A DNA stretch of 33,589 nucleotides. Origin: Paraglomus occultum (lineage: Eukaryota; Glomeromycota; Glomeromycetes; Paraglomerales; Paraglomeraceae). Below the pieces are notes generated by a model that saw only the letters and a program-made list of their open reading frames with translations, was not told the DNA's origin and did not search any database. This document shows positions 6,501 to 30,185 of this stretch, in pieces. A program made the position numbers and the translations under genes. The stretch lies in the NCBI GenBank assembly GCA_910592205.1, contig CAJVPJ010000226.1, forward strand, positions 1 through 33,589, in the 5' to 3' direction. Every line of letters starts with the position of its first letter. Position 1 is the first letter of the stretch.

Positions 6501-7276
6501 GGATGCAATCGCGTGGTGACGATGACGACCCCCATCAATCTGTCCCTTTGGCCATGCCTGTCGTGCAGCCAGAAGTCATCGTTACTGCTCCGCGTGTTCC
6601 GCCTAACGTTGCACCTATCGATTATAATGTGGGACCTGGAATGAATTCTCAGCAGTTTGGAAATCCTGGTGGCAATGGAGGTGGACATGTTAGGGCGGCG
6701 ACTGTGTCTGGACTAGGGGATAATCAGATGAGTTTGAATGATACGCTGAGTCCTTTGGATAGAATCGCTAGACTGTTTTCGGGTGGCGATGTTTCCGGTG
6801 CTATTGGTTTAAGTGAAAAGGAGAACATGATGTATCCATCCAATACGCACCGTTCCGCGAGCGAAGATAATGTTCTAAATACAAACTCTGTTCATGGACA
6901 ATCATTACTTACACCACAGCGCACAACACCAGCAGCAGAAGACGTGAGTTCGAATCTGACAAATTCTGGCAACAATGCGATCTACAATACGAATACATTT
7001 CACCAATCGGCTGACGATGTGAGCCATGTAAAAGACACTGTTAGTTTGCGCGGTGCAATATCTGTTGCTAGCGTCAAAGAAATGGCTGCGACGCATTCGT
7101 CGGTTACAAATGATAAGCTAACAGCGCAAAATCTTTACAAGAGTAGTCCGAGCCAGGAGAGTGTTACGAAAATTGCTGAATTGGCCGGGTCAAGTGGAAG
7201 TAATCAACAGGAAGTTACTAATGTAGAAAGTGGAGGAGAGACGAATACGGAACGGAAGAGATGGAGTTGGGGTTAA
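3540..7276 (+). CDS. Secreted/type-I transmembrane kelch-repeat (galactose-oxidase-like propeller) protein
   Basis: Five exons, joined in frame: 3540-4026, 4570-4703, 5011-5213, 5298-5350 and 5454-7276 (899 aa). Donors are GTAAGT, GTAAGT, GTAGGT and GTAATG; acceptors are TAG or CAG. Start: three in-frame ATGs exist (3510, 3522, 3540). I chose 3540 because it has A at -3 and gives the shortest n-region before a hydrophobic signal segment (about residues 22-41, then a YAQS cleavage-like site). The ectodomain carries kelch blades: the VLFGG, VYFGG, VFGGG and VFGGIG motifs are each followed by a Trp-rich strand such as DTTKWTW. A Ser/Pro repeat (about residues 383-396) leads to a single transmembrane helix (about 426-449), a basic stop-transfer HYRRKSRK, and a ~450-residue low-complexity cytoplasmic tail rich in Ser, Asn and Gly. 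A cell-surface role is inferred. Ligand and partners are unknown, and no catalytic oxidase residues were recognised. Confidence 0.85.
5722..5761 (+). repeat. 9-bp tandem repeat coding Ser-Pro linker
   Basis: About four copies of a TCATCACCA-like 9-mer encode SPSSPSSPSSPSSP, the extracellular juxtamembrane linker of the kelch protein. The repeat also explains the Asp/Gly repeats in a spurious antisense frame. Confidence 0.85.
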
Positions 7277-8498
7277 ATAGCGGGTTTTTGGTAAGGATGA
7301 CGCAGAGGAAAGTGTAGAATAAAACGTAATGCAAAAATATTTGGTAATGGTGGTGCCAGCTTGTAGTATCTTTGAAAATGAAACAAAATTATAATGTTAA
7401 AAAAAAAACCAACAATGTAGTAATACAACCAAGCAGTTTTCTTTTTCAAGTGACGAACAGCAGTAATTGAAACCATTGCAACGGGATGGGTGGGAGAGGA
7501 CGGTTGGCATAAAGATAGAACTATTTATATCTCAATGTAGCATTCAAATTAAGAACGTCACGACAATGATTATTATCACGATTTTTACGAATTTAAAACT
7601 TGTATATTTAGTTTCGAAATAAATCTTAAATTCTGCAGTATATGAATACTTGAGGCTAATGAACTGAGCATAGTAATATACTAATAATACTGTGGACTTG
7701 TTGCCCCATTACTGAAAGGTGTGATAATACGAAAAACCTAATTTGACAACGCGCAGTTAACAAAACTTTAGCCGACTACAGAATTTCAGTCTCATTGGCA
7801 TTATAATCTAATTTTGCATCCTGCATTTAAGAATTGTGCATGCGCCAATATATCTTAGCTAAATAGATGCTCACACCACTCGCTCTGTCTGTACATATTT
7901 CATATATCCTGAGTCATACTTTTTGTTTTATTATGTGATTCGATATCAAAGATGAGATAATGTGGGGCGGATTCATGGAATTTGGAGAAAATAGTAATAG
8001 GACGATAACAAAGGAACAACAGGGTTATAGAAGAAAATTTTGAGATGTGCGAGATATAGATGGGAGAGGTAGAATTGAACGGAAATAGAAGAGAGATGAA
8101 AAAATTTTGATGATAATGACTTTTAAGTAATTGTATACTCTCCTATGTTGTAGGAAAAGTCCAGTGTTCAAAAAAGGTATACTGACTCCTACTTGTGAAG
8201 TGACCAGTGTACAAATAGGGACTTTCGATAGATATTTCTAAATATAACAATATATACATACATATACACACACACGCACACATATACATATATGAATAAC
8301 AGATCAAGGGAAAAGCAAAACTGAGAAAAAACATGAAATATCCGCTCCAAATTCACTGTAAATATTTGACTGAGAAACAACGATATCACAATTATAATCA
8401 AGTGAAAAAAGAAAATAAAACCCAAAGAAAACGACTGAAATGGCTAAAACTGATGCGTAGCTTATTCCAACACACCGAAACACGTTTAATCAAAGCTA
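7277..8498. other. Convergent intergenic region (shared 3' flanks)
   Basis: Lies between the 3' ends of the kelch (plus) and KH (minus) genes. It contains AT-rich 3' UTR/terminator material, an AAATAAA-like signal near 7617, a purine-rich patch (about 7950-8110) and a dinucleotide microsatellite. Small ORFs here have no support. Confidence 0.6.
8250..8294. repeat. (TA/CA) microsatellite
   Basis: Imperfect alternating purine-pyrimidine run of TATACA, CACACA and ATATAC units. Likely simple-sequence DNA in the 3' flank of the KH gene. Confidence 0.8.
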
Positions 8499-9979
8499 TT
8501 ACACACCAGATTCGCCCCCATTACTAGCGTTCATGCGACGATCTTTTTCGCTCTCCAATTGATGATAAAGCAAGTACAAGGCCTTTTCATTCGCTTCAGA
8601 CGTTCCCTGGATAGTAAACATCCTTTCACCGGTTTCGTCGTGAGGCGTTTTCGCGATACTGATACGAGATCCGGAAAGACGACGGATTTCGGAAATTTTA
8701 GATCCAGCTTTGCCAATGATACATCCAACCATATCAGCGGGAATGCTAATATTCTGCACACGGGTTTGCGCGGGGTCAAAATTGGTCGATGAACGACGAG
8801 AACCAGAATAGTCACTTCCGGAACCGCCACTAGCAGCGCTGTTGCGATTAGGACGGGTGAAATCGGTTCCATTGCCAGTACGAATAGCATAGTCGTTCCT
8901 TCCTCTATTCGACGAATAACTAGGGGTCGTAATTCTAATAGCTGGATTATACAAAACCGTTCCAATCCCTCTTTCATTATCCTCAATCAAACACTTTCCA
9001 ATCTCCCATACTGCAATCTTAATCGCTTCGACGGTCCCTTGAACTTCAACAATACGCTCGGTACTTTGCGGCAACATTTCTTTCGACGCGACCATGCGAG
9101 CGTTAGAGACATCTTGAATGTGTTTAATTTTCGCTCCTTGGCGACCAATAATGGTACCCATGAGGTTATGCGAGATGAGAAGACGGACGGAGGTAAAGGC
9201 GTTTGGGGAGGGAGTAATGGGAGCACTGTTGGGGCTGGCGTTAACGGGGTTTTCGAGAAGTGTCTGGGCTATGAGAGAGTAGGCCTGGGAAACGGAAACG
9301 AAGGATTAAAAAAAGCGAACCAGTTAGAAGAGATGGGCTTACAGTGTCGAATATCACAACAAATGATTACATTTCGATAATTCTATATTCGTCGTTTCCG
9401 ACCCAATAAATTTCGGACAACATTCTTTCACAGAATTCTCTTTTAAAATCGGTCTCTTAATTAACGGAACATTTACCTTAGCTACTCCATCAAGGGTACC
9501 AACAACCGAGAGCACTCTATCATGAATTCCTTGGATAACCTTCGAGACACCAGCCTTGACACCAGTAACTTCTCTGAGTTCTGCGACATTCTTTCCGGCC
9601 TTACCAATGATAACTCCTGCCTCTTTAGTCGAGACGAGAGCTCTCAAAGTAAGAGTTTGACTGGCAATGCCATCAACGTCACCGTTTGGTTCCTTTGGAG
9701 CGTCTTCTGTGTGGTATTCTACGACAGTATTGATTGTTAGAAACTTTATTTAATACGACCGAAAAAGGAATGTATCCAAGAGGAAAACGCATATATATAG
9801 AACGTATGGTTTGACATACCAGCAGTCGTGCCATTACTGGTTACAGGTACTGCTACTTCAGTAGGCTCCGCGTCGGACCGAACAGTGTCGCCTCTGATGG
9901 AAATGCTCGCGGCATCGGCATTGACGTTTTCATAATTGTAATTGATAGTAGTTGTCTCTGACATCTCTTCCTTTGACAT
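8499..9979 (-). CDS. Triple KH-domain RNA-binding protein (PCBP/hnRNP K, yeast Hek2/Pbp2, S. pombe Rnc1 type)
   Basis: Three exons on the minus strand: 9979-9820, 9718-9477 and 9284-8499, joining in frame to 395 aa. Donors are GTATGT and GTAAAT. The first acceptor TAG follows a CTAAC branch-like motif; the second is CAG. Start is the first ATG (9979-9977); an alternative lies at 9964. Three KH domains are visible, each with the GxxG nucleic-acid-binding loop: KH1 IIGKAGKN (GKAG at 92-95), KH2 IIGRQGAK (181-184) and KH3 IIGKAGSK (325-328). A Gly/Ser/Arg/Asn-rich linker of ~80 residues separates KH2 and KH3, and the N-terminal 70 residues are acidic and unstructured. Length and architecture match fungal three-KH proteins (about 380-410 aa), which bind poly(C)/CNN-rich mRNAs and control mRNA stability, translation or localisation. 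Which of Hek2, Pbp2 or Rnc1 is the true orthologue cannot be decided here. Confidence 0.9.
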
Positions 9980-10450
9980 TGTTCACAAATGTATACGATT
10001 CGTGTGTAAATGAAATTTATATACTCTAATTATTTTAAGTAACTTTAAACTGATAGTAGCCGTTTGCTAGCAGTTCTAATATAGGAATAAGTCGTAACTA
10101 CTTGAGAAATAAAGATTATTGGATTATGCCAAATATCTTAACGAAAATGAAAATTCCAAGTAGTTTGGGCGAGGTCTCCGGACCCGTAATAATTCGAAAC
10201 GAAATTAGGTAGAGTTAGAGGACCAGAGAGAGAATAATCGATATAATTATATAGTTAACGAGAATTATGGCTAAAAGATCGAGTATTGTGAAATAACGTA
10301 AGCCAATTATATATATTTATATTCTTTTTTTTTGGTTTTTTTTTTATCTTTACACCGAAATACGATAATAAATGAAAAAGGGACGAAAGGAAGAAGTGAA
10401 AGGGAAGTAAATATTCGGATAGAAGTTGACGACAGGATGGTGAGAGACGG
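9980..10450 (-). promoter_or_regulatory. Promoter/5' leader of the KH gene
   Basis: Read on the minus strand, a long pyrimidine-rich stretch (TCTCACC..TTTTTTCTTCCCTCC to CTCTCTCTGG, about 10480-10210) precedes the start codon. This is typical of fungal core promoters and long leaders. No TATA box or defined factor site is certain. Confidence 0.4.
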
Positions 10451-10489
10451 GAGATATGGAGGGAAGAAAAAAGGGTGAGATTTTTTTTG

Positions 10490-10863
10490 CTATGGCTGAA
10501 GCACTTTTATCTGATTACGACGCACCTCATACATGGGATGTGATGATACAATGGGCGCTGAATGATGACGTGAAACAGATCTACAGTTGTATACAAAGAT
10601 CCTTCAGACCCTTTTGCAGGTTCGGCGATGTTGTGTTCTGAAGCGAGTGCAGAAAAGGAAGGTATCAACACTGTAGTGTGTACCTTTCCAAACTGGTCGA
10701 CGTAAACTGTTGTATCGGAAAAAGACATGTTGAGTTGATTTCGCTTTTCATTGGTATCAATCGCTAGGCAATGAGTAATATAAACGTAAAAAAAGCATTG
10801 CTGAGGTTTAGTGAAAGCCGTTGTCACCGAGACTTTCTTTCTCAGCAGCCATTTCTTACTCAT
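10490..10863 (-). CDS. Uncertain small gene with ambiguous splicing
   Basis: A minus-strand frame is open from an ATG at 10863 (MSKKWLLRKK) to 10507, and contains a second ATG at about 10728 (MSFSDTTVYVDQFGK). Two splice models read plausibly. (a) From the second ATG, donor GTACAC after FGK and acceptor CTTCAG give a short ending NLQKGLKDLCIQL. (b) With a first intron after RKK and acceptor CTGTAG, the protein would end ..YEVRRNQIKVLQP with the stop at 10490. Neither product is recognised. The donors are weaker than those of neighbouring genes, and an opposing plus frame (10456-10641) is also open. It could be a real small protein, an upstream exon, or chance. Treat as a candidate only. Confidence 0.25.
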
Positions 10864-10883
10864 TATGCACTAGTCGAATTTTG

Positions 10884-10903
10884 ACAACTTCGCATGAAGT
10901 TGT
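10884..10903. promoter_or_regulatory. Perfect 8-bp inverted repeat upstream of the small-gene candidate
   Basis: ACAACTTC-GCAT-GAAGTTGT. A CACGTG E-box-type hexamer lies at 10950-10955. Both could be regulatory sites upstream of the minus-strand candidate at 10863. Function is not shown. Confidence 0.25.
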
Positions 10904-10955
10904 GCACTACTTCACTGCAACTTGTGTTATTGTGATTATTTAGTTTTACCACGTG

Positions 10956-11699
10956 ATACTTATTTGTAATGACATCAACAAATCATCGTCGCACTTTGTG
11001 GGGATGAACTGCAAAGCAACGTTGAACATGATATAAATGAGAGGCTGTTTGGCTGAAAATTTAGTCAACTTTTCTCTGACAAATTTGATTTAGTGGAGAC
11101 GGCTATGGCTCATGCACAAACCATTGCTATAGATTATAATTTTAAATACATATCATGAACTTTTAAAGTTATCATTATGACGTATTTCATATAGAATCAT
11201 GTCTATATAAATTCTACTTAACTGTTGATCAGAATGTGGAACGTGAGCATTTTGTAACAGTAACATCGACGCTATCGATGGTTCTACCAAGCTTGTATTT
11301 TTAGTTCATAGTTTCTCTCTAACTAGTTTTTTGCACTGCAGCCATCCCGAAAATGTGATTACGAAACGCATCATATTTTAGCGATATAGGGATAATTCAT
11401 TTCGGCTGGCAAAAGTGTAAGCGATTGGGTAATGTTGACAGTCCTACCATTGACTTGAATTTTCAGCATAATTATCGAGAAAATTCTTCACAGTGTAGTA
11501 ATGTTTTATCGTAAATGCGCGACGTGTAACAAACAAACTGAATATCGCCAATAAGGAGTCCAAACTTATTGCCTAATAGTTAATAAGGAAACCGTTCTTC
11601 GTTCTTCTCAATAATGAGTTTACAACGCCGTTCCATTAATCTCACCAAACATGCTTTCCGAATTCTATCCACCCCCACTCCTCACCATATTAGACATTT
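10956..11699. other. Non-coding spacer
   Basis: No supported gene. The plus-strand ORF 11614-11856 overlaps the Tc1 relic in antisense and has no recognisable domain. Confidence 0.5.
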
Positions 11700-12072
11700 G
11701 TTAATTTATATCGGGTTTAAGGCAGGACTATTTGATGGCCAGTCCATAAACACTGGAATATTTCTTTCAAAAACTCCGTATCAAGACGATTCATGTGTTT
11801 TGTCTTGTTGTCTTGTTGGGGTCTCACCTACTTTCAAGCATTCTATTTACTGCTAGAATTTGTTTCCGGAAGATTTCTACATAATCCGTTATTCTTCCAT
11901 GCGACGAGTTTTGTTCGATCTTTGGGCATGGGACGGAGTGGCCGTTCTCCTTTGTACCAAAGTTTGACAGTGTTCTGGTAAACTTGGACCGCGGCTTTAT
12001 CAAAAAATAACGTCTTCCTCCAATTGTCATTAAGGTGCTTATGTGCTCACACTTATGGGCTTCGGTCAGCAT
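11700..12072 (-). mobile_element. Tc1/mariner transposase relic
   Basis: On the minus strand, frames broken by stops and shifts contain the family's landmarks in order: HLNDNWRKTLFFD (around the first catalytic Asp), QNTVKLWYKGERP and PMPKDRTKLVAW (about 12042-11890), QQDNKTKH (second catalytic Asp, about 11815) and DWPSNSPALNPI followed by a stop where the conserved Glu of NPIE should be (about 11740-11703). The order and spacing fit the DDE core of Tc1/mariner transposases. Several frameshifts and the lost Glu make it dead. No terminal repeats were found, so the true element boundaries are unknown. Confidence 0.75.
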
Positions 12073-12320
12073 AAGAGTTTATTTAAATAATGCTTTAGTC
12101 ATTTCTCTGTACTGATTGTCCCTACCTCGCGCGTACTGTTCCTTTTTTAAATGTGGTGAAATAGCGCGATGAATTTGTTGGCCATTGCGATCCGCAAATT
12201 TGACTCTGTGGTTTCTTGCTTACAAGTGGACATTGTTGAGTTACTTCTTCGATGTGTTAAATGAGATAAGACTGACTTTTCTTGTTGTATCCGAGTATTA
12301 GACAATAAGACATCCTTCTA

Positions 12321-12628
12321 CAGTCAAAGCTCAACCCAATAGGAAAAGAACAGCCCATAAAAGGGTAAGGAAGCCCTCTACCTTGGGAATTTGGTGCGAA
12401 AAACTAGTGAGTAATCACGAGGGGAGAGACTAATTAAATAATGTTAGTGTGCCACTGGCACTAGGAGCCTTATCTCGGTTATAATGAAAACTTGGACATA
12501 AGCCATGAACTCTACTACAGCATGAGTTTCCATAATAGCATGTATAATCTATTATAAATTGTGACAAAAAAGTTCTTTTATAACGCAATTTTATTGTAAC
12601 GAGATCAATTATAACGAGCTTTTGACTG
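12321..12628. mobile_element. MITE with pogo/Tigger-like terminal inverted repeats
   Basis: The 308-bp element starts CAGTCAAAGCTC and ends GAGCTTTTGACTG, an inverted pair with one indel. It is flanked on both sides by TA (12319-12320 and 12629-12630), the expected TA target duplication of the Tc1/mariner/pogo superfamily. The right subterminal region repeats TTATAACG-like motifs, as in pogo/Tigger elements. There is no coding capacity, so it is a non-autonomous element. Confidence 0.7.
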
Positions 12629-12630
12629 TA

Positions 12631-13430
12631 TGTGCACTAGAGATAACGATTCTATTTCACTTGTATTAGCCTTCGCCATATTAGTTATAAATGGTTTGCC
12701 ATGAAGGAAACATAGTGAAGCCGCTATGTTAAGCCACGAAAGACTTGCTTCGTTTTGATATATAAACAAATAACATGTTTAACATTTGTTCGAACACCGT
12801 CTTCAGCGAACAGTAGTATGAAAATATAATTTTTTTAGTGACATGTGTTATCAGTGAATGAGATGTACAGCGATACGTTCTTCGTTAATTACTGTCGTTA
12901 AAGAGGTTGGAAAGTTGCCTTCATATTCTTTCGTTCGATTGCGAAAATATGTTTTCTAGGTTTCGGAATGTTATACATGAAAGAGTAATAGTAAGGATAT
13001 GTCCATATACGCTAATTATATTTACAATCAAACTATTAGTTGGAATGACTCTTCTCTCATACGTTTTCTCTTCAATTCAGATAATATGCCAGCAGATGTG
13101 ATTGGGTGGAAATGGATGGAAAGGTATAGATAGCCTTACAACACCCGCGCCTCAGATAGTCTAACTTCTCTATGTATCTTTTGTACTCTTTGCTTGCCAT
13201 TATTCGATTTTCTCCTAGCAGTCATGTTTACGCGATGAAATGTTCTATGAAATTAGTCACGCGGTTATGCCTTACCTCATGCTCTGCATTGTGTCGTTAT
13301 CTGGTTTCACAAGTCAATCTCGATCAAAAACAATAACAAATATTAATTAATTATATCTACAGATTAGATCATCTGAAAGTTGACACTGCGGGAACATTTG
13401 GGCTTTGGATAATGTTTATAGGTATGGCGT
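12631..13430. other. Non-coding spacer upstream of the N-acetylglutamate synthase gene
   Basis: No supported gene or repeat seen. The ORF at 12907-13101 is hydrophobic by composition and has no motif. Confidence 0.5.
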
Positions 13431-13438
13431 TATATAAA
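13431..13438 (+). promoter_or_regulatory. TATA box candidate for the N-acetylglutamate synthase gene
   Basis: TATATAAA lies 66 bases upstream of the predicted ATG (13504), followed by a CT-rich stretch (AACCTCTCGG.. to CTCTTCCGCCC). Position and sequence fit a core promoter. No experimental support. Confidence 0.4.
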
Positions 13439-13503
13439 CAAACACTCGAAAGTTTATAACCTCTCGGTTTGTACTCTTCCGCCCACTGACTCGATTCATT
13501 ATT

Positions 13504-15483
13504 ATGCGAATATTTAGAACCACATATACGAAATCCCTTTCACAGTTAATAAACCCCATCACAATATGTAAAAATGGTCTCTTACGTCATTCCCGATACA
13601 GTTTCTCAACACAAACTGATAGGGTACGTAGTGTTGTTTGTAAGGAAACGTCCTGATTCAAATGGCTTGACAAATGTTTCAATTATAAAATCATTCATTC
13701 TATCAGAATACCGACATCTCTGACGAAACGATAATCGAACCAACGTACGCTAATGAAAGGGTACTCAATCAATTTTTAATAACGCTACTTTATCGCCGGT
13801 TATATTCTCTCTCGGCTAACTAATATCAACATTTATTTTTAAAATTAGGACCTAATATTGAGTGTACTTCACTTTCACCCAACCAAGCGTGAAATTAACT
13901 CTTACAAGAAAAGACATGTTAAAACATACCCTTCACCGGCGGCATCAACTCCTGTTCAATCGTCTCCAAGACAACACGAAACGATTCAGCAAAAAACTCC
14001 ACAACAACTACAGCAAACATCTCGCGAGCAAAGAGTTGAATTCATCAATAAATTATTCCAAGACACTATTGAACATTTGGCGCTAATTAAAATACAGTCT
14101 CCATTCACTCCGCTTAATTTAAGTTACGTTGCAAAAACGCTAGTACATCTCCAGAAGTTGGGTTTAATGCCAATAGCGGTTTTGGATAATGAATATTGGA
14201 ATACCCCTCAAAATCAGCAATATGACAGACTTCGTGACCTAATGATTGCTGAGGCTCTTAACGTCACCGAAGCCATTGAATCAGCCGGCGGTCGAGCGGC
14301 ACCCGTATACACTGGTGTGTTTTCAACGGAAAACAAACTGAGCGATTACGTCGTTCCCACTCCCGCCACAGATGGCAATCATCATATCAATGTATGTTTA
14401 TCATGGCTGAGGAATTTGACGGATCTAGGCCAGATACCGTTAATATTACCGACTGCTACAAATGATTGTTCGACGCAAAGGACAATATCGTCTAATTCTG
14501 GAATGGTCGCCTTATCATATGCCTTGGCCCATTTGAAAGCAGATGAGACAGAATCAGATACGGAAGGATCTAATGAAAAAATGGCATTTGAACCAACAAA
14601 GATTGTAGTTATTAATTCAGAAGGCGGTATTCCATCACCTGAGAGGAAAGGATCTCATGTTTTTGTCAACATTCAGTCGGAATACGACGATATCAAAAAT
14701 AGCTATCAATTAAATCCGCAGTGGTATTCCACACATCCAACGGGATTGGAAAATCTCGAAATGATTAAAAAATGTCTGGAGCATCTGCCAATAACATCCT
14801 CAGCAATAATGGTACCGGCTCATTCCCCGACTGGCCTAATAGCAAACTTAATAACAGACAAGCCTCTCTTTTCTTCATCACTTCCTATTCGTTCTGCTTC
14901 TGCCCCACTAACGACGACTACGGTCCTCCGTCATGGCTTAAAAGTATCTTATCACACCTCATTTTCCACTCTCAATATCGACTCGATGGTTAAACTCATC
15001 GAGTCGTCGTTCGAGCGTCGTTTAGATGTGGATAATTACTTAAAGAGGATGGAAACTTGTATCGATAGCATCATTCTCGTTGGCGACTATCAGGGTGCAG
15101 CGGTGATTACTAAAGAGAACGAGGATGGAGCGAGTAAAGGCAACATTTCATATTTGGATAAGTTTGTTGTAACGCCAGACAGTCAGGGAATTGGTGTGGC
15201 TGATATATTGTGGAAGCGGATTGAAGTTAATTATCCAAGTATTGTATGGAGAGCGAGAGCAGACAACAAGATTAACAAATGGTAAGTATGGGATGATGTT
15301 GACGTTACGCATCAGTTATGTCGTACTAATCGCCGAATTATCAGGTACTTTGAACGATCAACTGGTAATATGAGAGTACCAGGAACTAACTGGACAGTAT
15401 TTTGGTATGGAATGGAAGGAATTGACAGGATAAACGATTATATTAAAGTATGTCGGAAGATTCCACCATCACTGCATTCGTGA
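13504..15483 (+). CDS. ARG2: Mitochondrial N-acetylglutamate synthase (amino-acid acetyltransferase), first step of arginine synthesis
   Basis: Transfers acetyl from acetyl-CoA to glutamate in the mitochondrial matrix, the entry step of ornithine/arginine synthesis. Four exons, all in phase: 13504-13623, 13707-13760, 13849-15281 and 15345-15483; 581 aa, close to yeast Arg2 (about 574). Donors are GTACGT, GTACTC and GTAAGT; the last intron has a TACTAAT branch site. Exon 1 encodes a classic matrix presequence starting MRIFRTTYTKSLSQL, with Arg/Lys/Ser/Thr and no acids in its first 35 residues. Exon 3 opens with DLILSVL..PTKRE, the conserved N-terminal block of fungal enzymes. The C-terminal DUF619-type GNAT domain holds the acetyl-CoA loop QGIGVA (about 504-509) and the block ending INKW-YFERSTG..VPGTNWTVFWYG, conserved in fungal Arg2. 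The 54-nt exon 2 is the least certain part; exon 1 could also splice directly to exon 3 in phase. Feedback inhibition by arginine is a family property, not visible here. Confidence 0.9.
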
Positions 15484-17090
15484 AGTTGGCATGTTTTAAT
15501 CGGCGTAATAATGTCGATAACAAGGTGGATATAGTAGACGTTCTATTAATGGAATGTATTGGCTCATAGTTAATGTCTCATTTTGCCCAATTTTTCTATT
15601 TCTATTTCTTTTTCTTTTTTGTTTTCAAATATTCAATGTTTCTTGACTCTTGTTCTTATGTGTATAATTATTTAATCGTAATGTCGCGATATCGATGATA
15701 TGGGACAATTTAAATTCAGTTATGTAGTCTAATTAACAATCGAATAATAGAATCTAATATGAAAATATAAGACATTATTCGCTGATCATGCGTAATCATA
15801 CTCGCGGGCTCATGGCCAATTTTGATCTCTCGGGCTATGCTTGTATTTGACTTACTAGCCTAATTTGATAATGTTACGACTCTACAGATGAAGCAACTCG
15901 GTCTGTTGATGTCTGTTCGTTCCTAACAACAGCACTGACCGTATGCTTTCAAGTATGACATCATTCTTAAACCACAAACGCGGCTAGCTGGTTTCGTGTC
16001 CTTTATTAGGCGCAACTAAGGTGGATCTCTAAAGCTGCTTACGCGGCTAGCTGGTTATGATCCTATTGATTTTAGTTTTGAATTGCGGGTATGTGAATCA
16101 AGTTGTATATGATTTCTTTCTTGGTGTGTGTCTACTGATATTGAACAGTTTTTGCGGTATATGGGAACTTCTATGACCGCATATGGGCTCGTAGCAGATT
16201 GTAAATAATGGCACTTCCTCAAATGCACAATGGAAAATGCTGCTTATGTGGGAACAGAAGATGACTTGCAAAGGAGCGGTGTTTAGTGTCTGTTGGATTA
16301 CATCACATAGTCTCATGCCATGCGAGGTCTCAACTCAATGAGATATGTGATATAGTTATGCGAAATGCGTTGACTCGTAATATCTTGTAGCCCATTTCGC
16401 TAAAGTTTTCTAGTAAATGAAATTCCTCTAATTTGTTGAAATATATCGCGTCCAAGTCATTCTCATTTTTACATAAGACATGTTACCAGATATAATGCCC
16501 ATTCTGATCAAGTAAGTTATAATCTCAGTTCGCGTAAAGTAAAGCAGTGCGTGACAAATTAATTGAGAACAAAACAATAGGGTAAGCAACTAATAGCACG
16601 CTGGGTATTAGTATGATATTCGATGAAATTAAGAGATTAAAAGTTACTTGTGGTAATGCCGGTGAATCAAAATAATTTTACTATTTGAATTTACCTGTAT
16701 TTAGTAACTTGCGGTTATTTCGAAATAATCGGACATGCTAAAAATATAAATTGACTGTAGATCGAGATTGGGTGGGATCGTATTAAATGGCAAAATCGAG
16801 TACCGCGGGATTAAATAATACTAAGCTAGTTCAAAACTCGAATAACGATGCGGAACTCGACAACTATTATTGGAATTTAAATAACGATTGTTGTGTTCAT
16901 TACAATTCAACAGTTGAATAGTAAAAAAGTTAGACGATGAATAGCGACTATTTCGCATGAACCTTATTAATATCCTGATGTAGATGTGGTTGGTGAAATT
17001 ATGAAAACTTATTGTAACTACGAAAATGGTCTAATGTTTGTAAGTTGTATCCCGACTATTTAGCACTCAATGCATATAGTTATTTTATTA
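15484..17090. other. Non-coding spacer with a short direct repeat
   Basis: 3' flank of the N-acetylglutamate synthase gene (T-rich at about 15590-15650), then unannotated sequence. The only structure seen is a 16-bp exact direct repeat at 15978 and 16041. The minus ORF 16098-16316 has no motif. Confidence 0.5.
15978..16056. repeat. 16-bp exact direct repeat, 63-bp spacing
   Basis: ACGCGGCTAGCTGGTT occurs at 15978-15993 and 16041-16056. It is GC-rich in an AT-rich spacer. It may be a target duplication around a 47-bp insertion or a binding-site pair; nothing decides between these. Confidence 0.6.
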
Positions 17091-18100
17091 TTCTCATTAT
17101 ATATGTACGCAATTATCTATTCATTGACAAAGTAAGAGATAATTAAAAAGACTACTATCTTTATATTTATCAATCCATCAAATTAAAAATTGTTTGAAAA
17201 ATGATCAAAATAGAAAATAAGAGAAATAACAAAAGTAGAATATCAAGAAAATTCAATCAGTTAAAATTGTTATAGTTATTATTATTATGAGTTTGGAAAT
17301 CTTCTCTTGAGAAGTCAATTAGTAGTCGAATAAATTAATAGTTATCTTGACAAAGCTAAATAAAAGCCAAAATATAAAAATGTAACAGAATAGATAATGA
17401 GAATAACAAACAATTACAAAAAAAAGCCTTAAAGAAGCTTGGAGTGAAGATCAAGCGACTGTTGGTAGAAAGCTATTGACAAACTCAAAAATGGATTAAA
17501 AGTTTAGATAAGTAATTTATCAAAGAATTTCCTATGATCTTAGAGTTAGAAGAAATAAATTAAGTTTTGTTGCGATGGCTTTAATAATAATAGCTGATAA
17601 GAGAGTAAGCTCACCACTTGTCAAATAAAAAAATAAACGCAAGTTGACAGATAAATTAATTAATAATGACTGTGCTTGTCAAGAGTAACTAAAGAGAGGT
17701 TTGAAAATGGCCAGAGTAGTGTGGTAGATTACAAACAGATACTAATATCGATGTTTGCAGTATTAAGTATGTTTGTGTTTATTATTATGCTAAACATAAA
17801 AGGAGAAGAAGAAAAAATTTCCTGGTTCACTTAAACATTTATTTGCCTTCTACAAATAAATTATTAAGGAGAATTAGTCACAGCCGAGGAAACGTTAGAA
17901 ATTGGAAGAGAGGAAGTGGCCAAATTTCAAAAAAAGTCTTAGCGGCAAAGTAAAAGACGAAAACAAGAATTATTGAATAATAATAAGATAAAGAGTTTGG
18001 GGAAAAGTTGTACAACTGGAAGAGAAAACGAATTGTTGGAAGGACAACAAAATGGTCAAGTTGCTCAAATTAAAGTTGTTGGAAACTGATTAAACTTTTT
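17091..18100 (+). other. Purine-skewed block, possible decayed coding region
   Basis: About 1 kb in which the plus strand is markedly rich in A and G and poor in C, unlike the flanks. One frame near 17430-17625 reads protein-like for short runs (for example LKEAWSEDQATVGRKLL and VIYQRISYDLRVRRNKL) between stops. No family recognised. It may be a degenerate gene or retroelement. Confidence 0.3.
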
Positions 18101-20612
18101 GATTACTTTCTATAGATATTCATAGAGCGCTTGGTTATGTTTAAAACATATGCAATTTTTTTTCCTTAGCGTTCTTTAAATGCTTCTAATTCCGGATTTA
18201 ACGTAGTTTATTAGATGAGCCGATATTATATAGGAAATGTATTACAATATAATGATATTGCAAGTAAATGTTTATCTCAACCAGGCCAGGTTTACGTTTC
18301 AAATTTTATTCGCGAATGAGCCACAGCCATTAAATCATTCACCGAGTTGCAGTACTTATAAATGCACAGTATATTGGTATTGCCAAAAAGCTATGTTTAA
18401 AATAGTTCGAACATGTTCACTTTCGCAAGCATAAGAGTATTGAAGTGGGTAATATACATTGACAGTAAGTATGCATTAATTCATGTAAATTTCCAGATAA
18501 CAGACTAGCAACGATTTATTATACGCAGCAACAGTTTCCTAACTGCGGTATCAGGGGTGAATTGTAAACTGCGGAATCTGCGGAATCTCAAAAAGCGAAG
18601 ACAATAGACTGAGAGTGAATATTCTCTGCTTTCAATATTAAAGGTAAGCATTATACAAATATCCCCTTCCTCGGTGATCTTGTTTACTTTCGAGCGGCGG
18701 TGTTTATCGCACATGACCGCTTCATATTACCAAAAGAGTGTACATGTTGAGCTGCGATGCTAAAATTGACGCCTTCCAGCACCAAAACTCTGTTCCCGTT
18801 TAGAATATCGTACAATAAATTCTTTTACGGTAAAGGCTGGATTACGATATGAATAAACATTTGGGCTAATTCATATTTAGCCGAGTGTTTTTGCAGTGTT
18901 CTGAATTTATCATAGTTACAGCATGTGGCGTAAAACGACGAGCCCCATGGTGGCTGTTAATCTGCTATCGGTTGCGAGAAAGATTGGAATTCTGGACATT
19001 CTGTCACAGTCTTTAAGCTGTCGGACTTGCCCGTTGCTGAATCAGTTGACCAGTTTGTTTGTGTTGCACACAATGCAACGTAAATGATGCAAGTGTGCGT
19101 GAGTAGTTGAGAATGATTGAATATGATATTCTATATGGAATTTTCATGTACGAACGTAAGACCTTTCTCTGCGGAAGTGAGAAGAGGAATGTCTTGAGAG
19201 AATGGTATATGTAACCAAGCATTCTGAGAATGTCTGGCGTTTTATCAGTAAGTATAGCTAGCATATTAAGACTAAACGCTAATTCCAATTGGGGAGTTGA
19301 AGATGTGTGTTTGTTGTTTCGTTTTCGGCATTCACACCAGGTAAAGCTGATATTGTGTAACAGACAATGCACATGACAATGAAAACAAGACACCCGATGA
19401 CCCGAGCACTCTCATCATCGACTGTTGAATGTGGTACAGGCTTTGGATTGTTTTTGTTGGATTGAGGTTCAAATGTTTGTTACGGATGGAATACAGAAAA
19501 AAGAATGAAGATCTAACAACGATAGGCTGCAGGTGAAGGCCGTAAAGAAGTCATAGTGAGACTAGTAAGTACAATAAGATGGAAAGAAAGGGGGAAATAC
19601 TCACAACACAGAGGCCAGAAATATTGGTTGTTGGTCTTTGAGTCAACACAAACCGAGTGTGACAATGGTGCCACTATTTGCTTGATAATACGTTGTATAT
19701 TATTAATCCCCTTTTATTTTTGCAGTATTATTTGTTGTCGATATGTTATGGTAATTTTGCTTCCCTTTTGGGATATCCTACTCGTTTTTGTTCAATTATA
19801 GCATTCTAGCCATTGTATGAATGTTACCACCGCTTATCGTATATCAATCCCATATCACAAAGCATTTAATGAGTTACTTAGTCATCTATCCTTATTAGCT
19901 TTATCTTTCCTTCGTTGTACGTACCGTCTCTTTCACAAATTCCTATATTAACATTCTCATAGATCAAGTGGTGATGATGAAGCATGCAAATTGACTTGTA
20001 TGTATTATATGGTAGTCATTAGCATAATTGAGTTAGATCCTTACTGCTATAGGCAACTGATGTGAATATTGTAAAAGACTTTGACAATGAGGAAGTTGAT
20101 AATGCAGATATACAACGAAAGCAATATATTGATTAATTACAGGAAATATATGCAAAGTCGTATGCACAAAACTGTAACTTATATTCTCTTGCATATATTA
20201 ATAGACTCAAGTTTACCTCACAAGGAGTTTACTATTGTTTGAGATTATTATGTGCTACTGACGAGACTCGATGATGTTGATTACCCGTTCGCTGTTACTT
20301 TCTGTCACATATTTGTATTGTGGGCGTAGATGGTGTGATATAACGCGTGCTGCTTACAGATGTTATTAGAGAAAAAGGGGTGGGGTTTGGGGCTGGAGGA
20401 AACATCAGATCTGTTGTAAATGGGTCGAATCATTTCAAAAAGATCGAATGCGTTTGTTCATCCAAAATCGTGTTCCTGAGCCGAAACTAAAATATTTAGT
20501 TAGACCACATATGAAATTCGTTGTTCACTAGGCAATCAATTATCAATTAAATCAACAAGTAAGATTACGAGATTGATTATTACAAGTATTACTTAATTTT
20601 CATATAATAAAT

Positions 20613-20635: not shown

Positions 20636-22606
20636 GACCGTATATATTCTCACCAGCCCCATCACAAATTTGACGTGCCAAATTTAGCAACGAATCTTTC
20701 AATTGGCGATCACTTGTAAGGAGGCGATAATTTGTTTTTTTTTTTTTTCATCTTCATGTGAGAGCAAGAACGTAGCACAGTCGTGCATTCAACTCTTTCA
20801 TTTTGCTCATTAAGCCGATCCTTGGATGAATATTCTCAGACAACTCCCGTCATCACGTTGGAACAGTTCTTTCTTTATTAGTGCTAGCAATGGTGGTGTG
20901 GCGTTTACTGTGTACATTCAGCCACAATCAAACTGGCCATAAATAAGCATAAGGCAGTCCGGGACTTTACATCTCCCCCAAAACGTTTGAGTCGATCCCG
21001 CTTTCAGAATTACCTTTTTTAGGTTGTATGCCACAACATACATATTTTGAAATGGTGCATTTCCGCATCGTAACATAAATAACAATAATGTTTATATATG
21101 TGTGTGTATGTACAGTACAATACTAGTGTAGCCTGAGAACAAAAAGTTTCATCCAAGTTTCAAAAATGCTGCTGGTACAATTACTACAGCTAATTATAAA
21201 TGCCAACCTATTGTTTGTCACCTATTTGTACCAGTTCGAAAAATAAAGTAGTATATGGCCGGGAGGGCATGATGTATGGACTAAAAAAGCATTCTGTTTA
21301 TGATTACGTGTTGTTTAATTTAGATTTCACGGAGGGGGAAAAGATGGATAAAGCATTGCGTGCAGATACGACACGTTGTGTATGCAATATACGTTACATA
21401 AATAATTCTAATTTTATCTCACTTTGCTATGAGGTCATAGCCAAATCACTGTTCTCAGTAGTTATTCGCCAAGTCTGATTAAGGTTTGACTTGGTGAGTA
21501 ATCCAATTACTACATAAAGGACTGTACCTGTTTGAAATTTCATTAGAGCAACCATTAAATACGTCCCATGTTCGTATCTGTGGGGTTGTGAATTCCCACC
21601 ATTCTAGTGAATCGCCCATCTTCTGAATCTGACATGCATGCTGACATTATGGGCTTGAAATGGGAATGGGTTTGTAAATAACACAGTTTGAGTGAGTTTT
21701 AAAGATAGGGAAACTGAACGTTACGTTGGGGTAATGATATGAAACGGGTAAATTGGCACTCATTTCTGATATTAATTAAAACTATATATGTTTTTTTAAG
21801 TTTTGTTATTTGCGTATACACATATTTTTGTATTATTTGCGTTCCAATTCACAAAAGCAAAACAAGGAGATTTGATGACAGCTTATTGGATTAATGGTAT
21901 GGGCACGATGCAGAATGAGCGACACATCATTAGCTTCCCGCAGTATAATTGAATGGATGGCATTTACAAATTAGGCTAGATACATTTTCTTTATATGAAC
22001 ACACTAGTGGCTGCGCATGAACACACATTGAACGGGAGACTGGCAAGGATAAAAAAACTCTTGTTCCCAATGACGCATTGTATAAAAAATAAAGTAGCAA
22101 ATCTTTTATTTTTCCAACCCATCTATTGCGCGTAAGGTTCCTAACTTTTTCCATCTTAGTCTCTGTAAATTTGAACTGCCCATGTTCATACAACCTCTTT
22201 CAACCAACCCCTTAATATTGAAAGGGATACTCGTTGTAACACTTTTGTATGACAAGCTAAAAATAGATGTTACACTAACGAATTGGGCGCTAACGTTTGT
22301 TCTCTCGCCTGCCTTTATGTGCATTAATTTGGCAGTTGTCAAACGCTTGCTTCCACTCACATAACAACACAGTCCGTTCGTGGTCATAAGTTGCATATGT
22401 CGATATCAGCTAACGTTATTGAGAATCGTATATATGATGTGCTTTCCAATCTACGACATGACAGTCATTGTCTTCAATTGCACTAAATCGTGCAAACGGA
22501 ATAATGCATTTTAGAAACATAAATACACAGTCAAACCCTTTTAACCTTTCAATTGATTGTCAACAATATGATGGTTATCCCCGATAACGTTTCGAAAAAA
22601 AAAAAC

Positions 22607-25993: not shown

Positions 25994-26107
25994 GTGTGGT
26001 AAAAAAGGGAAAAAACGGGCCCCCGCAGCAAGCCGAAAACCAATGCTCCACGCCACTTTGGTTTTCGGCTTGCTGCGGGGGCCCGTTTTTTCCCTTTTTT
26101 ACCACAC
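25994..26107. repeat. Perfect long hairpin element, copy A (50-bp arms, 14-nt loop)
   Basis: Left arm 25994-26043 and right arm 26058-26107 are exact reverse complements over 50 bp. They begin GTGTGGTAAAAAAGGG, pass through a CGGGCCCCCGCAGC core and end GAAAACCAA. The loop 26044-26057 is TGCTCCACGCCACT. The GC-rich core stands out from the AT-rich surroundings. A second copy lies at 27848-27966. No ORF on it is credible, and no obvious target-site duplication flanks it. Likely a foldback/MITE-type element, comparable in form to GC clusters or double-hairpin elements, but I do not recognise the family. Confidence 0.9.
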
Positions 26108-26245
26108 CGCTGAGACCATTGAAATTTCGTCGATAATAATTGTTGATATTTGGGATGGTTCTTTTTTAAAATTCGGGTCATATAATGCACGAATGTACAA
26201 TATTTCGGAGTTGGAACGATCACGGATAAAACACTGCTGGTTTAT

Positions 26246-26542
26246 ATGAAAAGGAGAGGATTAGAAAGTCATTTCAAAGTATTAGAACCAGTGATATCTC
26301 CGCAGAATTCAACAGAAAAGGCTCGTGGGGGATTGGGAGCAATTACTTCACGTCGATTTGGCATCGGAGCCAAGATTTTGCAAGAGATTTCTCCCAACAA
26401 TGCGACTGAAATTCTCTTCAACTTTTCTTGGAAATGGCCAGACTTGAAGGAAGAGGTTATGAAATATGCCAGACAATTTGCTTCTGATAAGGCAGTGGCT
26501 GAGCAAGAATTGCTAGATAAGATGGATTTCTGGAGAAACTGA
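26246..26542 (+). pseudogene. C-terminal fragment resembling BTB/POZ proteins
   Basis: A 98-codon frame starts with MKRRGLESHF and ends KMDFWRN. Its second half (ILQEISPNNATEILFNFSWK, then WPDLKEEVMKYARQFASDKA) resembles the helical segment after the BTB fold in fungal BTB/MATH-like proteins, where an alternating N-A-x-x-I/L-L-F-x-F-S-W-K-W/F-x-x-L-K pattern occurs. The similarity is from memory and tentative. GATTAG at about 26258-26263 could be an acceptor, so this may be a last exon whose upstream part is missing: copy A of the hairpin lies only 138 bp upstream and no other exon was found. Probably a truncated gene; it could still be expressed. Confidence 0.4.
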
Positions 26543-26767
26543 TAAGTAAGAGTTGCATTGGCGTGAAATGGAAATACAGTGACTTAAAAGGCTTGAATGT
26601 TCTGACGAGTATTAAGACGGCCAACCTGTTAAAGCAAATAGCTCTCATTTGAACCGCTCCGCGAGTAGTTAAAGCAATAGCTAATTGTAAGATTATGATG
26701 CCTCGCGTTTCCCCCAAAATTTTTTCTCTCAAATTTCTTATAGACAGACGGGGAGAAAAAAGCCGTC

Positions 26768-26863
26768 ATGTTCACCGCACGAGGTTTCGCTCGCTTTTCG
26801 CGACGAACTACAACCGTCGCTGCTCATTATATTCAGTTTTCGCCTGTCTTGCGACGGTTCTAG
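26768..26863 (+). CDS. Micro-ORF with mitochondrial-presequence-like N-terminus
   Basis: A 31-codon ORF (MFTARGFARFSRRTTTVAA..) is rich in Arg, Thr and Ala with no acidic residue, like a matrix-targeting presequence, and is preceded by an acceptor-like CTTATAG (about 26739-26745). It could be a first exon of a nuclear-encoded mitochondrial protein whose later exons are lost, or chance. An overlapping longer frame (26695-26937) has no motif. Confidence 0.2.
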   Translation: MFTARGFARFSRRTTTVAAHYIQFSPVLRRF

Positions 26864-27189
26864 TAGACGCAAGTGTATTAGTCGTGGTAGGTTTGGTAAA
26901 GCGGGCGGGTGGTTTTAGTTTTGAGGTTAGGGAATGATTTTGTCTTAATGCAGGCAATCGGTGCGACGAAGAAAAATAATAAATAAGTTTACGGGAGCAA
27001 AAATATTAATACGTAATGAGTCGCAAAGAAAATTCGGGACGTGTTGTAAAACTCTTGGAAACGTGCAGAAGAATACACAAGTAAAACTTGTGGACTCTAT
27101 GGTTTTATTCATACAAAGCTAGGTGGATCCAAAGCCCCCAATGCAAAACAAACTTTGATAGAATAAGATGATGCTCGTCGGGCCAGAAC

Positions 27190-27342
27190 ATAGATATGAT
27201 TATTATTTAATTTGTTATACCGATATAATGAGGTTTCCATAAATAATATCACTATAAAGAGGGCCTCTGATTATACCGATAAACTCGTTATACCGATGCA
27301 AATGGCCGGTGCCACTCGTATCGGTATAAAGAGGTTTGACTG
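27190..27342. mobile_element. Solo pogo/Tigger-like transposon end
   Basis: Read from the right, the sequence starts CAGTCAAACCTCTTTATACC followed by repeated CGGTATAA motifs (at least four between 27200 and 27330), with TA just outside (27343-27344). This is a canonical pogo/Tigger-type terminus. No matching left end was found within about 1 kb, so the element is truncated or one-sided. The left limit given is approximate. Confidence 0.55.
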
Positions 27343-27442
27343 TATATGAATTCCACCTCTATTTATGCACGCCCGTGATTTTCAGGTGATTTGTGCAAGG
27401 CTAATGGACATCAAAATATGAGGTCATTTCAACCACATTTAC

Positions 27443-27662
27443 CGACAATATTATTCTGTAGAGTATACGTAATTACTGGAAGTAAGGTTACTTCCATCTG
27501 AGCGAAAGTTTCCGGGGAAATTTCCAAGTTTACGATCATACCAGACAAAGTCTTAAGCACACCATTCGCTGCCATAGTCTTATCATCAATACTAAGAGAA
27601 TTTAAAAACTCTTCATCACGATCTTCAGGAATCGACTGGACAATTCGCAAATATGCATCACG
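27443..27662 (-). pseudogene. Isolated internal exon of an importin-7/8-type karyopherin (Sxm1/Nmd5-like)
   Basis: A 220-nt open exon on the minus strand is bounded by an acceptor (TCTCTCTTCGTAG) and a donor (GTAAAT). It encodes 73 residues beginning RDAYLRIVQSIPEDRDEEF, then DDKTMAANGVLKTLSGMIV and VTLLPVITYTLQNNIV. This corresponds to the HEAT-repeat region of IPO7/Nmd5/Sxm1 nuclear import receptors containing DDKAVTAMGILNTI in human IPO7. No upstream (VQLC..L-type) or downstream (DLYDE-type) exon can be found; instead a hairpin element lies 186 bp upstream and a pogo-like end about 100 bp downstream. The frame is intact, so the fragment is recent or was captured with its splice sites. Not a functional import receptor. 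Confidence 0.7.
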
Positions 27663-27847
27663 CTACGAAGAGAGAAAAAAATATTCAGCAACAACATCAG
27701 ACGCAGTTATACTAATCAATAGCTCACAATCATGACTTACTGTTAATAAACTGATGGGATATGTATATGTACCGGAGGGTAGAGGAAAGTGGTAATGCAG
27801 AGCAGGTAGATAGTTTCATCGAAAACTTGGAGAGATCACATAAATAA

Positions 27848-27966
27848 AAGTGTGGTAAAAAAGGGAAAAAACGGGCCCCCCGCAGCAAGCCGAAAACCAA
27901 AGTGGCGTGGAGCATTGGTTTTCGGCTTGCTGCGGGGGCCCGTTTTTTCCCTTTTTTACCACACTT
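27848..27966. repeat. Long hairpin element, copy B (inverted relative to copy A)
   Basis: Arms 27848-27900 and 27915-27966 pair over about 52 bp with a single one-base bulge: the left arm has six C in the core where copy A and the right arm imply five. The loop 27901-27914 is AGTGGCGTGGAGCA, the exact reverse complement of copy A's loop, so the whole unit is in the opposite orientation. Pairing extends two bases further (AA/TT) than in copy A, by chance or as part of a target site. Confidence 0.9.
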
Positions 27967-29071
27967 GCAAGCAGGAATTGTTGTCTTGGTGGTAACAATA
28001 GTATTCGGTGGATTTTTATTAGAATATTTTCCCACCATTCTTGATATGTCTTGCAATTTCAAGTAATAGTCCATTATTAAACTCTATAATAATAATGTCA
28101 AACACAATGTTAGACCAATAGTCATGTTTTGTAAGTAATTATTATTACATAATTTATACTTTGAAAGATACAGGTTGTTCATAAGTACATAAAATTGTTT
28201 CTTACCTGAGAATTGTCCATTTACTATTACCCAGCTTATATCGACAATTATTCACCAATAACAGATTCTCTTAATAATGTCTACATGTTAATATACAATG
28301 CAGACTTCTCCTTTCATATAGTGCATGACATAGTAATAGACTATTGTCTCACATTCTAAAACTATAAAGAAAAAATGGGTAATAATCTCAAATATCAGAA
28401 TGCACAAGTAATCTTGTATACAATAAACAAACTCTGAAGATGTAAGAGCTAATATTCAGTTACATTATGTCGCAAATACTGTTGGCATTGATTGGAAATT
28501 AAAGTTACATTACTTATACTATAAAAAGACAATTGAATTGGTCTATTGCATGTCATTTGAGATACGAATATCCAACAATTACAAAATCTCTAATTTTTTT
28601 CTAAATCTTTATAATAATAATGTCCAGCCCCATGTCAATTCTCATTGCATTCCTACCACACCTAAAAATTAACCAAAATTTTAGTATACTGTCATGTTTT
28701 GATTGAGGCACAACTCAAGGCTTTAGCATTGTCTAATTTATAATTCTTCTGCTGCTTATGCAAGTTGCTACTGATTTCTCCGCTATAACTATACTATATG
28801 TAGAACATGTTGCAACAAAACCAGACAAGTAAACGTTTAATTATGTGAGTTAAAAATGGCTAGCATGGCTGAAAAATTGGCTAAAGCAACTGAGTTTTTT
28901 CTTAACTTTGGTTTAGTATTAGCATTAGTGGCCCATGTCTGCATTCATGGATAAATTTAATTGCATTATTAATTATAACAGTAATATTTTATATAGGTCT
29001 ATCAATATAAACATAAAGTAATTTTATTAAATCCACTATTACTATGGTAACAAAAATTACAACACTATTAG
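27967..29071. other. AT-rich spacer
   Basis: No supported gene. A 32-codon plus ORF at 28856-28954 (MASMAEKLAKATEFFLNFGL..) is amphipathic/hydrophobic but too short to call. The minus ORF at 27730-28074 runs through the hairpin and is not credible as one gene. Confidence 0.45.
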
Positions 29072-29371
29072 AAGCATTTTAAAAAAACTCAAGGAGAAAA
29101 AATTGCGCCTTATGTTTTAAAAATCAATAATACCCAAACTCTCCAGGAATATCTAGATAAAAAACAATTACTTATGCAATTTATCAAAAAGAAAGGAATT
29201 ACAACTAATAAATGAGCATTAACATCAACACATAATAACCAAGAAAAAGCAAAAACTAGAAAAAACATAAGTAAATTTAACATAATAATAAAAGCTTCCC
29301 ATCGAGCCTCTATTGATTGAGCAACTTATAAAAGATTGTTTTTCATCGTTTCTGACTGTTTGATTTGTTGA
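29072..29371 (+). pseudogene. Decayed ORF with two in-frame TGA codons
   Basis: Between stops, 100 codons in one frame read as ordinary protein (APYVLKINNTQTLQEYLDKK, then KAKTRKNISKFNIIIKASHR), interrupted only by TGA at 29213-29215 and 29318-29320. Lys/Asn-rich composition suits an AT-rich fungal gene or transposon ORF. Family not recognised. TGA at both breaks is easily explained by CGA to TGA (C-to-T) decay or by TGG to TGA change. Confidence 0.4.
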
Positions 29372-29565
29372 TGAAGGACTGCTTGATTACATTTCATGTT
29401 TTGATATAATGATAATTAATGAGACAAATAACTTAATAGTAACGATTTGATTTTTGTAGACTTTATTGATTACAAAATGCGATCACTGTTGTTTGGTCAC
29501 TCTGGTGCAAATTTAAATTTTCGATAGCATTAATGTAAATTTTGTTTTCCGTTTTATAAAAATTT

Positions 29566-30185
29566 TCATCGTGGAGGTTGCAATGCCTTTTCCTTCGCGT
29601 AATTTACGGTCATTTGATCAAATAAAAAGTTTGGATCCAGCTCATCTTTTTTGCCAAACAAGTTTTCAAATTTCTTCCACAGTTTTTTGACGTCTGGTAA
29701 GTAACTCTAGTTTGCTTGGTTTGTTCTTATGTCTTTTCTTAGGCTCGATTAAATTGATTATTCAATTAATTTTTTGATTTATAACGTGGCAACAATATGG
29801 CTGATGTGAACTAACTTGATTTGGCTGTGACTTGCACAAATTTATGGACGAAGTTTGAAGTTTGCATATAATGTTTAAATGCACCATATTCACCTATAAT
29901 ATTTTTAATTAATTCTTTGTGTAGTGCATTTAGGTCTACGTTATCTTCAAGAATTGCGTCAACATGTTTAAGAAGGAATTCCCATGTTATTCCATGTTCC
30001 TTTAAGATTTCATAATCTCTTAGATACGCTCGTGAAGAATTTAGCAGATACACACCTGCATTTATTTCATCCCAAATATTTATTATATTTCGACCTGATA
30101 GTGGAGTGTATTTTGATACTGATTTGTGCGGTTGTTTAAATTGGTTGCATTTTGAATTAGTTGTTATAAACAATAAAGTGATCAA
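29566..30185 (-). pseudogene. Orphan two-exon gene fragment, 5' end missing
   Basis: Minus strand. Exon a (about 30185-29816) is open and encodes GRNIINIWDEINAGVYLLN, then RDYEILKEHGITWEFLLKH, LNALHKELIKNIIGEYG and HKFVQVTAKS. It joins in phase through a 122-nt intron (donor GTTAGT, acceptor CTTACCAG) to exon b (29693-29566), which encodes VKKLWKKFENLFGKKDELDP and ends EKALQPPR before the stop at 29566. Both exons are highly charged and look like a real intracellular protein. No family is recognised. The frame is open back to about 30217 but has no ATG before the core, so the first exon is missing or lies further upstream. Possibly a lineage-specific gene fragment; it could be the 3' end of a live gene. 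Confidence 0.45.

Follow-up and report, generated by a model that had tools for sequence, protein, structure and literature searches.

The window, by which we mean the whole 33,589-bp stretch of Paraglomus occultum DNA analysed, comes from an arbuscular mycorrhizal, root-symbiotic fungus whose genome is called repeat-poor in the title of PMC9453076. It encodes an N-acetylglutamate synthase, and no tRNA was found in it. Both contig ends (78–654 and 33035–33502) belong to high-copy repeat families with dozens of matches at 72–86% identity, and another dispersed repeat family lies at about 28806–29785, where most of the longer matches are at 72–86% (40 candidates scored out of 289). At 22197–22240, Rfam gave a match below threshold to a CRISPR repeat family, which is probably due to chance, the host being a fungus. 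Our subject is a composite stretch of 1,971 bp (25994–27964), bounded on both sides by a long hairpin.

Hairpin A (25994–26107, forward strand) is a perfect palindrome, with 50-bp arms that pair at 50 of 50 positions and a 14-nt loop. Hairpin B (27850–27964, reverse strand) is the same unit inverted; when it is aligned to A after reverse-complementing, the sole difference is one added C within a C run. The original prediction had described exactly such a pair, a perfect copy and a reversed copy with an extra C some 1.74 kb apart, and the description holds in each respect, the distance between the two being 1,742 bp. The hairpins are not a product of chance: the longest perfect arm in ten first-order Markov simulations of the window was 10–12 bp compared with the 50 observed, and hairpin A folds as single-stranded DNA at −67.8 kcal/mol, where 200 shuffles average −18.8 (z = −16.6) and none of them does as well. 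The GC content of the unit is 0.535, against 0.372 for the window, and Rfam gave no structured-RNA family at the hairpins at E values up to 1. A target duplication was looked for at both borders, which share just the two bases TT (left flank ...ATAGTT, right flank TTGCAAG...) and nothing beyond; the first base of the stretch itself is G.

The assembly that was searched comprises 32.3 Mb in 1,408 contigs (C-numbers below), apparently of at least 10 kb each, the last being of exactly 10,000 bases and five others that were looked up being longer. For P. occultum, PMC9453076 gives a genome size of 39.6 Mb; its own assembly, made from bulk spore DNA (DAOM 240472), has 44 Mb, and the figure it gives from single nuclei is 49 Mb. 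On these sizes, between a fifth and a third of the genome perhaps lies outside the search. Within the 32.3 Mb, a DNA search and a 25-mer search allowing three mismatches placed the 114-bp unit at two sites only, hairpins A and B, and this copy number is a lower bound because contigs shorter than 10 kb apparently lie outside the search. The pair had been described as of foldback or MITE form, and many dispersed copies in a genome search would have defined a new foldback family. The foldback form, the recent origin and the lack of a target duplication (TT only) stand, but the dispersed copies that such a family should have did not appear, and a dispersed foldback family is therefore rejected for the 32.3 Mb searched. 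A plasmid, phage, bacterial or viral origin also found no support: the unit has no blastn match among plasmids, phages and E. coli genomes, and exact 22–25-base patterns taken from it gave no exact match in viral or prokaryote contigs. Within the scope of these searches, such a source for the hairpin is rejected.

A feature that lay beyond the original prediction is that the DNA between the hairpins is mostly a patchwork of pieces present on other contigs. With the 1,742-bp interval as query and all 39 candidates scored, seven pieces (64, 104, 112, 119, 138, 180 and 299 bp; 1,016 bp in sum) matched seven contigs (C1215, C266, C642, C586, C7, C271 and C883) with no mismatch, which sets a rough 95% ceiling of 0.3% on divergence; each donor contig keeps its own copy. 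It should be noted that two of the pieces were listed at 99%, their alignments having been extended slightly beyond where the perfect match ends. Repeat families or diverged relatives account for four further stretches.

From the left, a diverged stretch (26115–26188, reverse strand) is 81% identical to C655:3907–3978. Piece 1 (26189–26368, forward strand, 180 bp) is 100% identical to C271 and represents a coding part of a CNH-domain gene in the sense direction. Piece 2 (26368–26471, forward, 104 bp), identical to the minus strand of C266, lies in sense within a 134-codon open frame that has no Pfam match, is BTB/BACK-like by eye only and has a metagenomic protein relative (P0123). Piece 3 (26471–26534, forward, 64 bp) is identical to C1215 and lies within a 97-codon open frame, also with no Pfam match; 62 bp of it are 95% identical to C113 as well. 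Piece 4 (26703–26821, forward, 119 bp; minus strand of C586, 100%) is the 5′ part of an ATP synthase beta-barrel-domain gene in sense, and piece 5 (26821–26958, reverse, 138 bp; minus strand of C7, 100%) belongs in antisense to a gene with Tau/MAP tubulin-binding repeats. Piece 6 (27066–27177, forward, 112 bp) is identical to C642, parts of it being 78–85% identical to C494, C430 and C491. There follow a repeat-family stretch (27187–27347, forward), with a best full-length match of 96% on C1048 and 100% identity over 75–77 bp where C708 and C76 begin, whose end resembles pogo-like ends, and a second such stretch (27343–27398, forward) with 86–95% identity to six contigs. Piece 7 (27393–27691, reverse, 299 bp; minus strand of C883, 100%) contains, in antisense, exon and apparent intron sequence from a split gene, which implies that DNA was copied and not mRNA; the donor exon has no solved-structure match and is importin-like by eye only. 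The last stretch (27734–27849, reverse) is again of a repeat family, at 81–88% to C57, C211 and C160 and 71% to C980. On C57 it forms the 3′ part of a gene with no Pfam match, which by eye looks like a transposase; the match on C160 extends to the base adjoining hairpin B.

By a hand count, 1,409 of the 1,742 bp (81%) are matched in the searched assembly. The remainder falls at 26108–26114, 26535–26702, 26959–27065, 27178–27186 and 27692–27733, and its share would be about that predicted from the portion of the genome outside the search. Separate searches with 26100–26195, 26530–26705 and 26950–27070 gave a single relative, at 81%, for the first of these. Pieces 3 and 6 could possibly have come from repeats, since diverged relatives of both (95% and 78–85%, respectively) exist elsewhere.

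The edges of the pieces are sharp, identity falling to 20–36% in the 50 bases past each end of the seven. Perfect pieces adjoin each other at three positions (26368, 26471 and 26821), and each time they have exactly one base in common, which is compatible with end joining. As random blunt joins are expected to share no base in 54% of cases and one base in 29%, three joins cannot separate blunt joining from one-base microhomology. Between the diverged stretch at 26115–26188 and piece 1 (26188/26189), no base is shared. Joins at the repeat stretches near 27343–27398 overlap by 5–6 bases, the contigs matched there being candidate donors, and one of these repeat stretches may be an older nested repeat.

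The left flank (6,994 bp, both candidates scored) has one match besides itself, at 92%. For the right flank, where 40 candidates were scored out of 487 and again 40 out of 289, no match above 94% identity was seen; high-copy repeats limited the scoring, so that a perfect short piece could have escaped and the control is partial. For window positions 1–18999, the window's own copy is absent among the 39 of 283 candidates scored, so this comparison is uninformative. The argument for an insertion is carried by the left-flank control together with the perfect pieces. Because the patchwork starts and stops at the hairpins, the two are better read, on the sequence, as both ends of one composite insertion than as dispersed foldback or MITE copies.

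The cargo includes coding pieces in both senses, and three of the donors are named by their domains (the CNH-domain, ATP synthase beta-barrel-domain and tubulin-binding-repeat genes). Pieces 1–3 each retain the sense and frame of their donor, with the result that an open frame of 118 codons (26186–26542, forward strand) runs over all three. That both pieces after the first should keep sense and frame has a probability of approximately 1/36 by chance, and selection is not claimed. A predicted P. occultum protein, 9741_t (P0121, 101 aa), covers 83% of this fusion frame with 97% identity, taking in all three pieces; judging from the position of its start, its gene model apparently has a splice within piece 1. 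Pfam gave no family for the fusion frame, the donors of pieces 2 and 3 or the end of the C57 gene.

The near-identical inverted ends, with a cargo that stops at them, have the anatomy of a fragment-packing transposon. We therefore put at about 0.5 the probability that the 1,971-bp stretch is a single fragment-packing insertion, young and non-autonomous, with the two hairpins as its terminal inverted repeats. At least 11 short stretches of the fungus's own DNA (the seven perfect pieces and the four of repeat-family type) would have been copied in and joined end to end. The inverted hairpins would be what an enzyme recognises, the source of that enzyme would lie elsewhere in the genome, and the pieces would have been added inside the element by end joining. 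Addition of pieces by end joining has been proposed for Pack-type transposons and for multi-fragment Helitrons. That the ends are almost perfect and the pieces fully so points to a recent assembly of the patchwork. No transposase or Rep gene was seen inside the insertion, and no partner element with the same ends was found in the 32.3 Mb searched; the occurrence of the insertion in one copy only in those 32.3 Mb counts against this reading, in which movement is presumed, as does the lack of a target duplication. Seven of nine matches to the Helitron Rep domain in this genome lie above the Pfam cut-off, so that machinery able to capture fragments may be present. The matches above it are on C1142, C1319, C265, C1118, C183, C496 and C77, several of them in long open frames.

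In its working the insertion is like a Pack element, but it is not filed as one. Pack-MULEs have long terminal inverted repeats, a cargo of unlinked host gene fragments and a 9–11-bp target duplication. The insertion resembles them in being non-autonomous and in having long terminal inverted repeats around several unlinked gene fragments with exon and intron; it differs in that its ends are perfect palindromes and the 9–11-bp duplication is absent, and membership is rejected on the latter ground. No relative with the same ends was found in the contigs searched, and Pfam detected no MULE among the frames scanned. Foldback elements such as FB and Galileo have long, internally repetitive ends with target duplications. 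The ends of the insertion can likewise fold back, but each is one short palindrome, and assignment to the foldback or MITE group fails for want of many dispersed copies in the 32.3 Mb and of a consistent target duplication.

Short nuclear fragments joined by end joining are also what multi-fragment insertions at repaired breaks contain, and this likeness gives the main competitor. A break, perhaps at a pre-existing palindrome, could have been end-joined with many short nuclear fragments, the palindrome being doubled and its loop flipped, with no transposon involved. The single shared base at each of the three perfect-piece joins, the presence of coding pieces in both senses from donors on seven contigs, and the single copy in the 32.3 Mb searched all fit such a scar. 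Solitary palindromes do occur in this genome. A scan of 269,057 bases was made with exact 14-base seeds, allowing loops of up to 60 and requiring arms of at least 20 bp. About 186 kb of these bases lie outside loci derived from the window, and there it revealed two other palindromes; the scanned loci overlap in part (as L007 and L059) and are not a random genome sample. One of the two (C57:50085–50169) is a solitary perfect palindrome with 38-bp arms and a 9-nt loop, present as a single copy in the searched assembly; the other, on C595 (L025:85–126), has 21-bp arms and no loop. The C57 palindrome starts with GTGT, as does the hairpin of the window. It was considered as the end of a second patchwork and rejected, since a search with 1,331 bp around it yielded 14 matches elsewhere in the assembly, on other contigs and at 70–99%, none of them perfect, and 12 of the 14 come from one stretch of about 140 bases. 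As this palindrome stands alone and not at the end of a patchwork, long palindromes here need not be transposon ends. Repair alone, in contrast, leaves unexplained why the same unit should stand inverted at both ends with the patchwork stopping there, and we know of no multi-fragment break-repair insertion with identical inverted hairpins at both borders. End joining with mostly 0–1 bp of microhomology has been described in human cells (PMC7969033), in line with such a scar. We regard a repair scar as a possible but rather unlikely account.

The patchwork could also have been made outside the fungus, during phi29 amplification or assembly. The assembly was probably made from amplified single nuclei; protein names in the style of 9739_t:CDS:2 presumably reflect the published single-nuclei assemblies, which they fit. 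Those assemblies were produced by multiple displacement amplification (MDA) and SPAdes from the combined reads of 7–24 nuclei per isolate (PMC10512289). The main text of that paper does not contain the word 'occultum', and PMC9453076 cites the work for single-nucleus Paraglomus assemblies. A technical chimera would be expected to have pieces that are 100% identical, just as observed here, and the linkage from flank to flank is given by the assembly only. MDA is described as producing about one junction per 22 kb, and in 127 of 475 junctions the segments joined were more than 10 kb apart (PMC1855051). At that rate, at least ten such junctions within 1,971 bp have a probability of about 2e-23 on a simple Poisson estimate that assumes independence, one of the ten possibly being an older nested repeat. 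Joins made by MDA are mostly local and inverted, whereas the donors of these 1.7 kb are on seven different contigs. Two stretches are at least 12% off every match listed, unlike a fresh chimera of the loci searched, although contigs outside the search could carry closer copies, and the pooling of reads from several nuclei in those assemblies also argues against an artefact. Complementary bases are present at the join in only 28–35% of long-range MDA joins (PMC1855051), so that low shared sequence does not exclude this origin. On balance we consider an artificial patchwork improbable.

An extreme form of a non-autonomous, rolling-circle element like Helitron2 or Helentron is, in our view, very improbable: the hairpins at both ends, the multi-piece captured cargo, the lack of a target duplication at a T-rich site (TT|TT), as in some but not all members, and the Rep domains of this genome (with no link to the hairpin unit) recall that group, but the insertion has no RepHel gene visible inside it, begins with G and not T, and has symmetric repeats of 114–115 bp flush with both borders, on which account membership is rejected, where the inverted repeats that define Helitron2 are of 8–15 bp and asymmetric, with the 3′ one subterminal (PMC3627910). 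Hairpins at both ends are described for Helitron2, one Chlamydomonas group of which inserts between TTTT and T/C with no duplication (PMC3627910), and two hairpins for Fusarium FoHeli1/2 (PMC5148889).

If the fragment-packing insertion is what we take it to be, a further step can be contemplated, and one we hold to be doubtful: that a hairpin-specific enzyme acts on free-standing, perfect hairpin ends and inserts with no duplication, that the interior is rebuilt by end joining of nuclear fragments, and that new chimeric genes such as 9741_t arise, which together would make a new kind of element in arbuscular mycorrhizal fungi. That fungal transposons capture genes is already known as such. In the open-licence literature surveyed by titles and the openings of abstracts, no hairpin-ended multi-fragment element was found for Glomeromycotina.

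Were the patchwork artificial, it would be a warning that dense multi-locus chimeras, annotated as genes, can occur in single-nucleus assemblies. If it is real, it would be a hairpin-ended element in need of its own enzyme, and a very early snapshot of gene-fragment shuffling, in which the donors are identical, the ends intact and a three-piece fusion already called a gene. As such, it would offer a testable entry to the making of new genes in the clonal, multinucleate arbuscular mycorrhizal fungi.
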